From: Micromonospora marina
Lineage (GTDB): Bacteria; Actinomycetota; Actinomycetes; Mycobacteriales; Micromonosporaceae
DNA: 64,000 nt
Direction of reading: 5' to 3'
Assembly: GCF_900091565.1 (NCBI RefSeq)
Contig: NZ_FMCV01000002.1
Location: 248,001-312,000, forward strand
This document shows, piece after piece, positions 26,995-63,016 of the stretch; within the stretch, counting starts at the first letter, position 1, and the number at the start of each line of letters is the position of its first letter. Made by a program: the position numbers and the translations under genes. The notes under the pieces were generated by a model. It did not search any database. It was not told the origin of the DNA and saw only the letters and a list, made by a program, of their open reading frames with translations.

Positions 26995-27036
26995 AAGGAG
27001 GAAGGCCGGGTCCGCGCGGACCCGGCCTTCCTCCTT
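26995..27036. terminator. Perfect 42-base palindromic bidirectional terminator
   Basis: The two 21-base halves are exact reverse complements, beginning AAGGAGGAAGGCC and ending GGCCTTCCTCCTT. It sits between the convergent ogt and ino1 genes, eight bases from one stop and 16 from the other, and forms a hairpin of about 19 pairs from either strand. Confidence 0.8.
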
Positions 27037-60070: not shown

Positions 60071-61306
60071 TCAGGCGGGCTGGGTGCGCAGGTAGCGGCC
60101 GAAGTGCGGCACTGTGAACGCCACGGTGCCCCGCTCGCCGGAGTAGATCAGCCCTTTCTTGATCAGCGTGTCCCGGGCCGGGGAGAGGCTGGCCGGCTTG
60201 CGGCCGAGCGCGCGGGCGATCTCGGCGGTCGGCACCGCCGCGTCCATGTCGTCCCGGCCGCCCTCCTCGCCGTCCACCAGCGCCAGCGTGGCCATCGCGC
60301 GCATGTATTCGCGTTCGGCGGGTGTGGCCCGCTCGAACCGGGAGCCGAAGAAACCCACAGCCAGTTCGGCCTCCGCCTCGGGCGCGGCGACCCGGACGTC
60401 CGCCGCGGTGATCGGCGAGCGGGGTGCGTGGTCCCAGGTGGCCTTCCCGTACGCCTGGACGAAGTAGGGATAGCCGCCGGAGGACTCGTAGAGCAGGTCG
60501 AGGGCCTTCTGCTCGTACTCGACCTCCTCCCGCTCGGCCGGCGCGCAGAGCGCCTGGTCGGCGGCGATCCGGTCGAGCCGGTCGATGCGCTGGTAGCGGT
60601 AGAGCCGCTCGGAGTAGGACTTGGCCGCGCTGAGCACGGCCGGCAGGTGCGGCAGGCCCGCGCCCACGACGATGAGCGGCGCGCCGAGCTGGGACAGCTC
60701 GTGGCAGGCGGCGCAGAGTGCGGAGACGTCCTCGGCGCCGACGTCCTGCATCTCGTCGATGAAGATCGCGATGCCGGTGCCGACGTCGGTGGCGACCCCC
60801 GCCGCGTCGCTGAGCAGCTCGACCAGGTCGATCTCGATGTCACCGGAGTCGGCGCGGCCGCTGCTCGCCGGTACGTCGATGCCGGGTTGCCAGCGGTCGC
60901 GCAGCTTGGGTGCCGCGCCGCCGCGCCCGGTCGGTACGGACCGTTGCGCGAACGCCTTGAGGACGCCGAGGAACGCGTCGATCCGGTCCGGGGCGCGGTG
61001 CCGGGGCGCCAGTTCGCGGACCGCCATGTGCAGCGCGGCCGCGATCGGCCGGCGCAGTGACTGGTCCGGCCGGGCCTCGATCTTGCCGGTGCCCCAGAGG
61101 TGGTTGATCGCCTCGGAGCGCAGCGTGTTGAGCAGGACCGTCTTGCCCACTCCGCGCAGGCCGGTGAGCATCAGGCTGCGTTCGGGGCGGCCGCGGGCGA
61201 TCCGTTCCAGCACCACGTCGAAGACGTCCAGTTCCCGCCCCCGCCCGGCGAGTTCGGGCGGGCGCTGGCCGGCGCCCGGTGCGTACGGGTTGCGGACCGG
61301 ATCCAC
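60071..61306 (-). CDS. AAA-type ATPase (ATP-binding protein)
   Basis: About 411 residues from GTG 61306, chosen because TACTGT ends seven bases upstream (GTG 61315 is also possible). It begins VDPVRNPYAPGAGQRPPELAGR, typical of a conserved actinobacterial ATPase. Walker A is LTGLRGVGKTVLLN and Walker B IAIFIDEMQDVG. A sensor-like LIVVGAGLPHLPAVLSAAKSYSERLYRY and a C-terminal winged helix (PTAEIARALGRKPASLSPARDTLIKKGLIY) follow. The architecture resembles STAND/Orc1-like ATPases. The partner and target are unknown. A large CTAG-rich inverted repeat lies just upstream. Confidence 0.87.
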   Translation of the reverse strand: MDPVRNPYAPGAGQRPPELAGRGRELDVFDVVLERIARGRPERSLMLTGLRGVGKTVLLNTLRSEAINHLWGTGKIEARPDQSLRRPIAAALHMAVRELAPRHRAPDRIDAFLGVLKAFAQRSVPTGRGGAAPKLRDRWQPGIDVPASSGRADSGDIEIDLVELLSDAAGVATDVGTGIAIFIDEMQDVGAEDVSALCAACHELSQLGAPLIVVGAGLPHLPAVLSAAKSYSERLYRYQRIDRLDRIAADQALCAPAEREEVEYEQKALDLLYESSGGYPYFVQAYGKATWDHAPRSPITAADVRVAAPEAEAELAVGFFGSRFERATPAEREYMRAMATLALVDGEEGGRDDMDAAVPTAEIARALGRKPASLSPARDTLIKKGLIYSGERGTVAFTVPHFGRYLRTQPA

Positions 61307-61380
61307 GAATCGCACAGTATCGGGTTCTCTAGCGGCCAGGCTAGATGCGCGTAGAGGCGGCTACTGCGTGTCGGCCTCGA

Positions 61381-61429
61381 CCAAAGACTAGGGCTGTCTA
61401 GCGTGAATGCTAGACAGCCCTAGTCTTGG
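61381..61429. repeat. CTAG-rich long inverted repeat upstream of the AAA ATPase gene
   Basis: The arms 61381-61402 and 61409-61429 are complementary over 21 positions with a single extra A in the left arm, separated by six bases. Each arm carries two CTAG tetramers, and two more CTAGs (61329, 61341) lie in the 70 bases before it. It could end transcription of the minus-strand LppU-like gene (stop at 61450) or act as an operator for the ATPase gene. Confidence 0.75.
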
Positions 61430-61449: not shown

Positions 61450-62316
61450 TCAGCGGCGCTTCAGGCACAGCACGAAGTCGAGCGTGTCCAGCTCGCTGTC
61501 GAAGAAGTACCAGTCGGTGTAACCGGCCACCTTCCCGCACTTCGCCTCCGCGTCCTTCTTGCCGCTCGTCGCGCCGTCGATGCGGCTCAGCACCTCGTAC
61601 GTCTTCGGGGCGCAGTCGGCGATCACCAGCTTCGGCTGGCCGCCGCCACCCTCGTTGGCGACGCACTGACCCGCCTTGACGAAGCGCGGATCGGTGGAGG
61701 ACGCCGGAGCCGCCGTCGTGGGCGTCGTGTCGGCCGGCTCGCTCGGCGGCGCCTCGCTCGGATCCGCGGCCGGCGGGGTGACAGCGGTCGTCCCGCCGGT
61801 CGGCGTCTGCTCGTCCCGGCCCAGCATCCAGTACGCCCCGGCGCCGCCCAGCAGCAGCACCGCCAGCACGATCACGACCACCAGCAGCGGGCCCTTCCCG
61901 CGCTTCGGCGGCGCCGGTTCGGCGTACGGCTGCTGACCAGCGCCGTACGGCGACCCGGCGTACGGGCCGTCGAAGTGGCCCTGCTGCGGCGGTCCGGCGT
62001 AGGGGGCACCCGGGTGGCCCTGCTGCGGCGGCCCGGGGGACCAGGCCGGTCCCGGCTCGAAGCGCTGCGTCGGCGGCCCGTACTGATCGGCCGGCGGGCC
62101 GTAGCGGTCGGCGGGCCCGTACTGCTGGCCGGGCGGGCCGTACCGGTCGTCGGGGCCGTACTGCTGGGTCGGCGGGCCGTACTGCGGGTCGGAGTGCGGG
62201 GCGTAACGCGGGTCGCCCTGCGAGGTGAAGCGAGGATCGGGCTGCGGGGCGTAGCCGTCGTCGGGCCGTCCCCAGGGCTCGGGAGAGCCGCCGCCCGGTG
62301 GACCGAAGTTCGACAT
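61450..62316 (-). CDS. LppU/SCO3897-like membrane-anchored protein
   Basis: 288 residues from ATG 62316, with CAGGAGG upstream. The N-terminal ~145 residues are Pro/Gly/Gln/Tyr-rich with YGPP repeats and sit in the cytoplasm. One transmembrane helix (LLVVVIVLAVLLLGGAGAYWML) follows, then a Thr/Pro/Ser linker and an extracytoplasmic domain with conserved cysteines: AGQCVANEG, VIADCAPKTYEVL, DAEAKCGKVAGYTDWYFFDSELDTLDFVLCLKR. This end matches the LppU family of actinobacterial envelope proteins, which have no known enzyme activity. The short C-terminal domain probably has two disulfides. Confidence 0.84.
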   Translation of the reverse strand: MSNFGPPGGGSPEPWGRPDDGYAPQPDPRFTSQGDPRYAPHSDPQYGPPTQQYGPDDRYGPPGQQYGPADRYGPPADQYGPPTQRFEPGPAWSPGPPQQGHPGAPYAGPPQQGHFDGPYAGSPYGAGQQPYAEPAPPKRGKGPLLVVVIVLAVLLLGGAGAYWMLGRDEQTPTGGTTAVTPPAADPSEAPPSEPADTTPTTAAPASSTDPRFVKAGQCVANEGGGGQPKLVIADCAPKTYEVLSRIDGATSGKKDAEAKCGKVAGYTDWYFFDSELDTLDFVLCLKRR

Positions 62317-62401
62317 GAACGCCTCCTGCGTACGCCAGTGCTGAGAGGCCGGCCACCACCTAAGGACGCCGACGCCGTGGTCACCGTAGCGCGGTCCCAC
62401 G

Positions 62402-63016
62402 ATGAGCTCACGCCCCGAGAGTGCGACGAACGTTGTCGATTCCGCGACGCCGCCGACCCGCACCGCGCTGATCTGGACCGCCCTCGTGCTGGTCTACCTG
62501 CTGTGGGGCTCGACCTACCTCGGCATCCGGGTCGCTGTCGAGTCGCTGCCGCCACTCGTCTCCGCGGCGATGCGATTCGCCGCCGCCGCGGTCGTGCTCG
62601 CCGTGGTGCTGCGCCTGCGGCGCGGACCCGGCGCGTTGCGGGTGCCCGCGCGCCGTGTCGGCTCCGTCGCGCTCGTCGGCGTGCTGCTGCCGGCCGGCGG
62701 CAACGGTCTGGTGGTGCTCGCCGAGTCCGGCCCGGCCGGGACCGCCGTACCCTCCGGCGTGGCGGCGCTGCTCGTCGCCACAGTGCCGCTGCTCGTGGTC
62801 CTGCTGCGGACGGCGGGCGGGGACCGGCCCCGACCGTCGACGTTCCTCGGGGTGGCGCTCGGCGCGTTGTTCGTCGCGGAACCGATCACCGCGCAGGTGC
62901 TGATGGGCGGCGCGGTCATCGTGGTCGGCGTGGCGTTGGTGGTGAGCACCGAGCGACCCCGGCGGTCCCCGCCACCAGCCGTCGGCGGGACGGCGGGGGA
63001 ACCGGCCCGGCGGTAG
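62402..63016 (+). CDS. EamA/DMT-type transporter with internal deletion
   Basis: 204 residues from ATG 62402, against about 300 for a normal ten-helix EamA protein. The N-terminal EamA repeat is clear: TALIWTALVLVYLLWGSTYLGIRVAVESLPPLVSAAMRF, GNGLVVLAESGPAGTAVPSGVAALLVATVPL. After PSTFLGVAL it jumps directly to GALFVAEPITAQVLMGGAVIVVGVALVVS, the end of the second repeat. About 100 residues (end of repeat 1 and most of repeat 2) are missing without a frameshift. It may be non-functional or work as a short dimeric form. The substrate is unknown. Confidence 0.82.
   Translation: MSSRPESATNVVDSATPPTRTALIWTALVLVYLLWGSTYLGIRVAVESLPPLVSAAMRFAAAAVVLAVVLRLRRGPGALRVPARRVGSVALVGVLLPAGGNGLVVLAESGPAGTAVPSGVAALLVATVPLLVVLLRTAGGDRPRPSTFLGVALGALFVAEPITAQVLMGGAVIVVGVALVVSTERPRRSPPPAVGGTAGEPARR

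Follow-up and report, generated by a model that had tools for sequence, protein, structure and literature searches.

A CTAG-rich inverted repeat beside an AAA+ ATPase gene of Micromonospora marina is probably one half of a two-site operator

We analysed a 64-kb stretch of the Micromonospora marina genome (64,000 nucleotides, hereafter the window), in which a CTAG-rich inverted repeat lies between two genes on the minus strand. The features of this locus are as follows.

60071 to 61306, minus strand: gene for an AAA+ ATPase (Pfam AAA_16) with a C-terminal winged helix, assigned by profile match, structure model and start comparison
61314 to 61319, minus strand: -10 element TACTGT, 7 nt ahead of the start codon, assigned by sequence and ortholog comparison
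61328 to 61345, no strand: proximal site, exact TCTAGC-N6-GCTAGA, at the -35 region of the promoter of the ATPase gene
61351 to 61355, minus strand: an additional half-site, TCTAC, lying upstream of the proximal site, from the own-genus and family consensus
61368 to 61372, minus strand: GACAC, a possible WhiA site, which most relatives carry at -66/-67 relative to the start codon
61384 to 61427, no strand: distal site, a 44-bp palindrome with four CTAG half-sites, directly beyond the stop codon of the LppU-like gene
61397 to 61414, no strand: core of the distal site, exact TCTAGC-N6-GCTAGA, from an exact-motif search
61450 to 62463, minus strand: gene of the LppU/SCO3897 family (NF049863), assigned by family match; the upstream neighbour in Micromonosporaceae

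The inverted repeat has perfect 19-nt arms, AAGACTAGGGCTGTCTAGC (61384-61402) and GCTAGACAGCCCTAGTCTT (61409-61427), which are 100% complementary and enclose the 6-base loop GTGAAT (61403-61408). When a 1-nt bulge is allowed, the arms lengthen to about 21 nt; thus, the near-perfect repeat of about 21 bases with a six-base loop described in an earlier note on this DNA is real. Four CTAGs lie within the repeat, their centres spaced 10, 12 and 10 bp apart, and two more lie just outside it, as that note had claimed. The six CTAGs (61329, 61341, 61388, 61398, 61410 and 61420) span 95 bases in total. The rarity of CTAG and the A/T-richer composition of the repeat were likewise borne out: dinucleotide shuffles predict 72.65 CTAGs for the window and it contains 14, of which 6 lie in these 95 bases, and the G+C content of the repeat is about 60-63% as against 70-80% nearby. 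Pairs of the form CTAG-N5-9-CTAG occur at 14 places in the 6.06-Mb genome, four of them at this locus.

One point was absent from the earlier note. The two CTAGs outside the repeat (61329 and 61341) belong to TCTAGC-GGCCAG-GCTAGA, the same 18-bp word as the repeat core TCTAGC-GTGAAT-GCTAGA, and so form a second copy of this motif adjoining the ATPase start. The distal copy, with its two further flanking CTAG half-sites, is about 70 bp upstream of the promoter-side copy. Exact TCTAGC-N6-GCTAGA occurs at only these two places in the home genome. The search for a wider regulon there gave 60 places with two mismatches versus 682 for the reversed control pattern, and one place with a single mismatch, on contig 67, within overlapping open frames. 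Therefore, we claim no second target.

Because a scan of the region for canonical promoters and terminators gave no match, we judged the -10 element by comparison of orthologs. At 188 of 189 ortholog loci, 6-9 nt separate a TANNNT hexamer from the start codon; elsewhere in these stretches the frequency of such a hexamer is 2%. The ATPase start is likely the GTG at 61306 rather than position 61315; the longer frame from there overlaps the -10 element. Shine-Dalgarno-like bases precede the gene at 2 of the 189 loci, and the natural reading is that the predicted ATPase transcript is leaderless. The proximal site begins at -39 in all 46 loci of the genus, and its start falls between -38 and -40 in each of the 60 other loci. 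It abuts the -10 element, so that a dyad-symmetric site overlaps the gene's own promoter, as in an autoregulatory operator. The distance from the proximal to the distal site varies (63-74 bp, once 120), which argues against a rigid loop.

The promoter also carries GACAC in 27 of 30 own-genus loci, 34 of 60 loci from other genera of the family, and 36 of 44 and 46 of 55 loci in two sets from other families (shuffle expectations 3.4, 8.1, 6.1 and 6.8, respectively); since a motif this short is common and part of the matches fall at different offsets, these counts alone are no proof of WhiA membership. At the Nocardia and Rhodococcus loci, GACAC falls inside the CTAG dyad. Two reports (PMC3781837, PMC4850268) describe binding of WhiA to GACAC in Streptomyces venezuelae, and the second of them warns that GACAC is a very common word. 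GACAC at the ATPase promoter is a lead only, as a possible WhiA site.

The locus is conserved throughout the genus. With a 181-bp query, the region was recovered at the same position from all 37 Micromonospora genomes, the home genome among them, and from none of the 24 genomes belonging to other families. All four CTAGs keep identical spacing at the 30 best loci, and the flanking DNA is less alike among own-genus loci. In a second sample, the exact pattern of four CTAGs was found in 34 of 38 genus genomes. The centre of the palindrome appears to have been inverted repeatedly within the genus: in 43 own-genus rows, the loop centre is GG in 18 and CC in 17, and this switch requires at least 11 changes on the ATPase gene tree.

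Next to the genus sample stand 200 genomes of the family Micromonosporaceae. The exact four-CTAG pattern was found in 61 of them, one copy each, and the reversed control pattern in none. Among 30 such loci that were fetched, 29 adjoin the ATPase gene and L059 does not. The last (genome G210, positions 1501-1536) is a four-CTAG palindrome with arms CTAGACCGGTCTAG in a family genome that has no ATPase match. The ATPase was found in 143 of the 200 genomes. The exact 18-bp dyad, present in one or two copies per genome, occurs in 121 of these 143 and in 0 of the 57 genomes without the ATPase (Fisher test, 4e-32, relatedness ignored); 22 of the 143 do not have an exact site. The exact-dyad places that were inspected, which do not cover the sites of all 121 genomes, adjoin the ATPase gene, except in genome G071. 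There, the exact site, at about position 514 of locus L157, precedes the ATPase gene by about 1 kb, with other open frames in between. Co-occurrence of the site with the gene, together with the restriction of exact copies to two places in the home genome, is the pattern expected of an autoregulatory operator.

Similar sites were found outside the family. A TCTAG-N8-CTAGA-like site precedes the ATPase start at loci of Jiangella, Actinomadura, Microbispora, Nonomuraea, Blastococcus, Geodermatophilus, Nocardia, Rhodococcus, Nocardioides and other genera. When the cut-off was set at 8 or more of 10 letters within 120 nt upstream of the start, such a site was present at 30 of 30 own-genus loci, 59 of 60 loci of other family genera, and 43 of 44 and 54 of 55 loci in the two other-family sets; the 189 loci share ancestry and the sets overlap in part, with some genomes included twice, so that these are not 189 independent cases. 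One other-family set leaves out L276, L293 and L304 (Micromonospora), L297 (genome already counted) and L242-L262. At the same cut-off, mononucleotide shuffles gave 2-3% and coding-sequence controls 14%, 6%, 1% and 1%, where the 14% is one of seven positions common to near-identical genes. The promoter-side site is retained in Jiangella, Actinomadura, Blastococcus and Nocardioides, among others, and the putative two-site switch is kept across many actinobacterial families.

Orthologs of the ATPase in many actinobacterial families are at least 64% identical, and the protein is known by no more than a general domain name. Pfam gave AAA_16 and a sub-threshold AAA_22, and a phmmer search of PDB gave ORC4 at E 0.039. 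An AlphaFold2 model built from 50 sequences (pLDDT 93.3, pTM 0.91) has an AAA+ module followed by a C-terminal winged helix, the arrangement seen in Orc1/Cdc6 initiators. Its closest solved folds are the archaeal ATPases PABY2304 (2qen; Z 23.6, rmsd 4.5, 324 residues aligned) and SSO1545 (2fna; Z 21.9, rmsd 4.3, 322 aligned), with A. pernix ORC2 (1w5t; Z 20.3, rmsd 6.0, 339 aligned) third. PABY2304 and SSO1545 match best over the whole model at 14-16% identity, and we know of no operator for either of them. The PADLOC defence scan of the protein gave just a weak mads_8 match (E 0.0028).

In an autoregulatory operator, the half-site would be expected to follow the protein clade. Among diverse ATPase paralogs (less than 55% identity), the TCTAG word was present at the cut-off in 1 of 23. 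The general palindrome test was weak: an upstream palindrome with p<=0.05 was found for 7 of 23 diverse paralogs and 5 of 15 sampled orthologs. Therefore, we turned to a clade-specific prediction. One paralog clade, clade B, has a different upstream dyad, TTTA-N11-TAAA, and this prediction was written down before further clade-B loci were fetched. The fresh set, which leaves out L332 and L333 (the same genes as L213 and L215) and loci less than 46% identical to L213 (L343-L356), comprises nine loci. TTTA-N11-TAAA was exact at 5 of the 9 and within one mismatch at all 9, versus 0.4% and 4%, respectively, in shuffles, and the TCTA word was found at none of the nine. With the fresh loci included, the exact clade-B dyad is present at 10 of 15 clade-B loci, and at these 15 loci its half-sites were not found at other spacings from N5 to N17. 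At the 189 loci of the window type, TTTA-N11-TAAA was not found even with one mismatch. In contrast, exact TCTA-N10-TAGA is present at 148 of these 189 loci versus 0 of 15 in clade B. In the protein, mean conservation of the recognition-helix columns (371-384) is 0.89 in 30 window-type rows versus 0.56 in 20 paralogs. Half-site specificity thus follows the protein clade, as it would for an autoregulatory operator.

On these comparisons, the repeat is very probably a DNA operator of the ATPase gene. The guess in the earlier note that it might be such an operator is strongly supported by the two 18-bp copies, one of them at the promoter, and by their co-occurrence with the ATPase. Because the half-sites follow the ATPase clade, autoregulation is the best explanation: we think it probable that the repeat and the promoter-side site form one operator, with the repeat as its upstream half, and that through it the ATPase most likely regulates transcription of its own gene. 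As for the reader, we lean towards the ATPase itself. The C-terminal winged helix would read the TCTA/TAGA half-sites, and an ATPase oligomer may occupy the four half-sites, which follow one another at intervals of roughly one helical turn, together with the promoter site. When abundant, the ATPase would block RNA polymerase at its own promoter. Given binding, repression is likely rather than activation, because a protein on the site in the -35 region would clash with RNA polymerase.

The main rival of autoregulation is a regulator of the TetR, Xre or a similar type, encoded elsewhere in the genome and dedicated to the ATPase gene as its sole target. The same motif evidence applies to it, an 18-bp dyad with flanking half-sites fits any dimer or pair of dimers, and no regulator gene need be adjacent. 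The observed pattern of half-sites would also arise if such a regulator had co-evolved with each clade of the ATPase. However, the motif vanishes together with the ATPase (0 of 57), and the half-site switches with the ATPase clade, so that a separate partner would be needed for each clade. We regard such a regulator as rather unlikely.

The structural likeness to Orc1/Cdc6 raises a different idea, namely that the repeat is a landing or nucleation site with a role in the chromosome near the origin, and that any effect on the promoter is secondary. Archaeal Orc1/Cdc6 initiators have inverted repeats (ORB repeats) next to their genes. Like them, the ATPase combines an AAA+ domain and a C-terminal winged helix in about 400 residues; it differs in its sequence (about 14% identity) and in that its sites are linked to a promoter. 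An array of four half-sites spaced by roughly one helical turn would suit such a role. So would the position of the gene: its distance from dnaA is 56-150 kb in the 40 of 45 Micromonosporaceae genomes that were worked out and 85-258 kb in 10 of 11 genomes of other families (G352 has a paralog only), where some of the genome lengths used were rounded. On the other hand, the promoter-side site is the better kept and is fixed relative to the -10 element, the origin-side position can be explained by inherited gene order, and no test here links a function in replication. We consider this role improbable. The same low probability applies to a combined proposal, in which each clade of an Orc1/Cdc6-like AAA+ winged-helix family would have its own DNA word, and the window-clade protein would assemble on the origin-side array of four CTAG half-sites, where it would both regulate its own gene and land for a role in chromosome maintenance.

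The earlier note also proposed a terminator. The repeat could serve the LppU-like gene in this way, as an intrinsic or a bidirectional terminator, or could be an RNA hairpin of another kind. The repeat is directly beyond the LppU-like stop codon, an 81-nt RNA folds strongly (-49.7 kcal/mol, z = -7.3), and most relatives have TTTT at the ends of the arms. At 46 own-genus distal sites, nearly all arm positions are complementary and changes are mostly on both sides; these symmetric changes keep the pairing and leave the hairpin perfect, as for an RNA. However, one-sided G-U changes amount to only 0-4% at arm pairs 4-21 in the same genus. Outside the genus, at 47 distinct distal sites, complementarity is 77-100% for the inner half-site positions and 72% and 96% for the outer T-A positions, as against 57-72% for the 6-bp spacers and 32-43% for the loop. 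An RNA stem would keep pairing throughout; here the spaced words are kept instead, and other genera retain the CTAG half-sites while the hairpin decays. This pattern argues for a DNA operator and not an RNA hairpin. In other genera, then, it is not pairing rather than sequence that is conserved. The terminator pattern scan (G+C-rich stem followed by a T run) found none, most relatives reach TTTT only, and an Rfam search by cmscan returned no family (one miRNA match was far below the gathering score). Moreover, the same motif is also over the ATPase promoter, and CTAG clusters are present upstream of the ATPase gene in families with no LppU-like gene detected in the flank. Termination as the main function is therefore not supported, and we give it little chance. 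The rule set out in the earlier note, that a single copy would make the repeat a plain terminator, does not hold for this repeat, which is single-copy but does not behave as a terminator. An added terminator activity for the LppU-like gene may exist in Micromonospora.

A relic of a mobile element (MITE- or REP-like), which the palindrome and its A/T-richer composition had suggested, is refuted by copy number and conserved position and has a negligible probability: the genome-wide search for the arms gave a single copy with no other in the home genome, the four-CTAG pattern occurs at most once per genome in 200 family genomes, and the repeat occupies the orthologous place in 37 of 37 congeners.

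Operators at their own promoters are well known among bacterial transcription-factor autorepressors. The operator proposed here resembles them in having a palindrome over the promoter of its presumed reader, a second site upstream and a one-gene regulon. It differs in its presumed reader, a winged-helix AAA+ ATPase in place of a classical repressor, in its four half-sites at 10-12 bp steps and in its leaderless promoter. In Salmonella, CTAG-containing conserved intergenic sequences have been described (PMC5337935). In the available part of that report, CTAG is likewise conserved between genes; the phylum is different, and no link to a promoter or an ATPase is seen in that part. Our literature search, which covered titles and the openings of abstracts, found no description of this motif or of the ATPase. 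A self-operator is of a known kind; an ATPase as its reader and the switching of the word clade by clade were not found in the literature searched.

The promoter architecture (operator, -10 element, leaderless start and GACAC) is conserved to a depth similar to that of the ATPase, which points to a core, dose-sensitive function. If autoregulation by the ATPase is true, an AAA+ ORC-like ATPase joins the self-controlling DNA-binding proteins. The clade-specific half-sites make both the reader and its specificity directly testable.

Several further observations were made. Relatives of the ATPase are present on 112 of 72,556 plasmid records, 110 of them at less than 60% identity, and one PHROG of unknown function matches the protein. 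An unannotated 5.9-kb record entitled "Bacteriophage sp." (MT837995.1) contains a relative of the ATPase at 72% identity; this record is possibly bacterial (host) DNA. In several relatives (L019, L022, L024, L027-L030, L035 and others), a tandem pair of LppU-like matches lies upstream of the ATPase gene, which suggests duplication. Elsewhere in the window, at 26995-27036, there is a perfect 42-bp palindrome without a loop, which consists of AAGGAGGAAGGCCGGGTCCGC and its complement.
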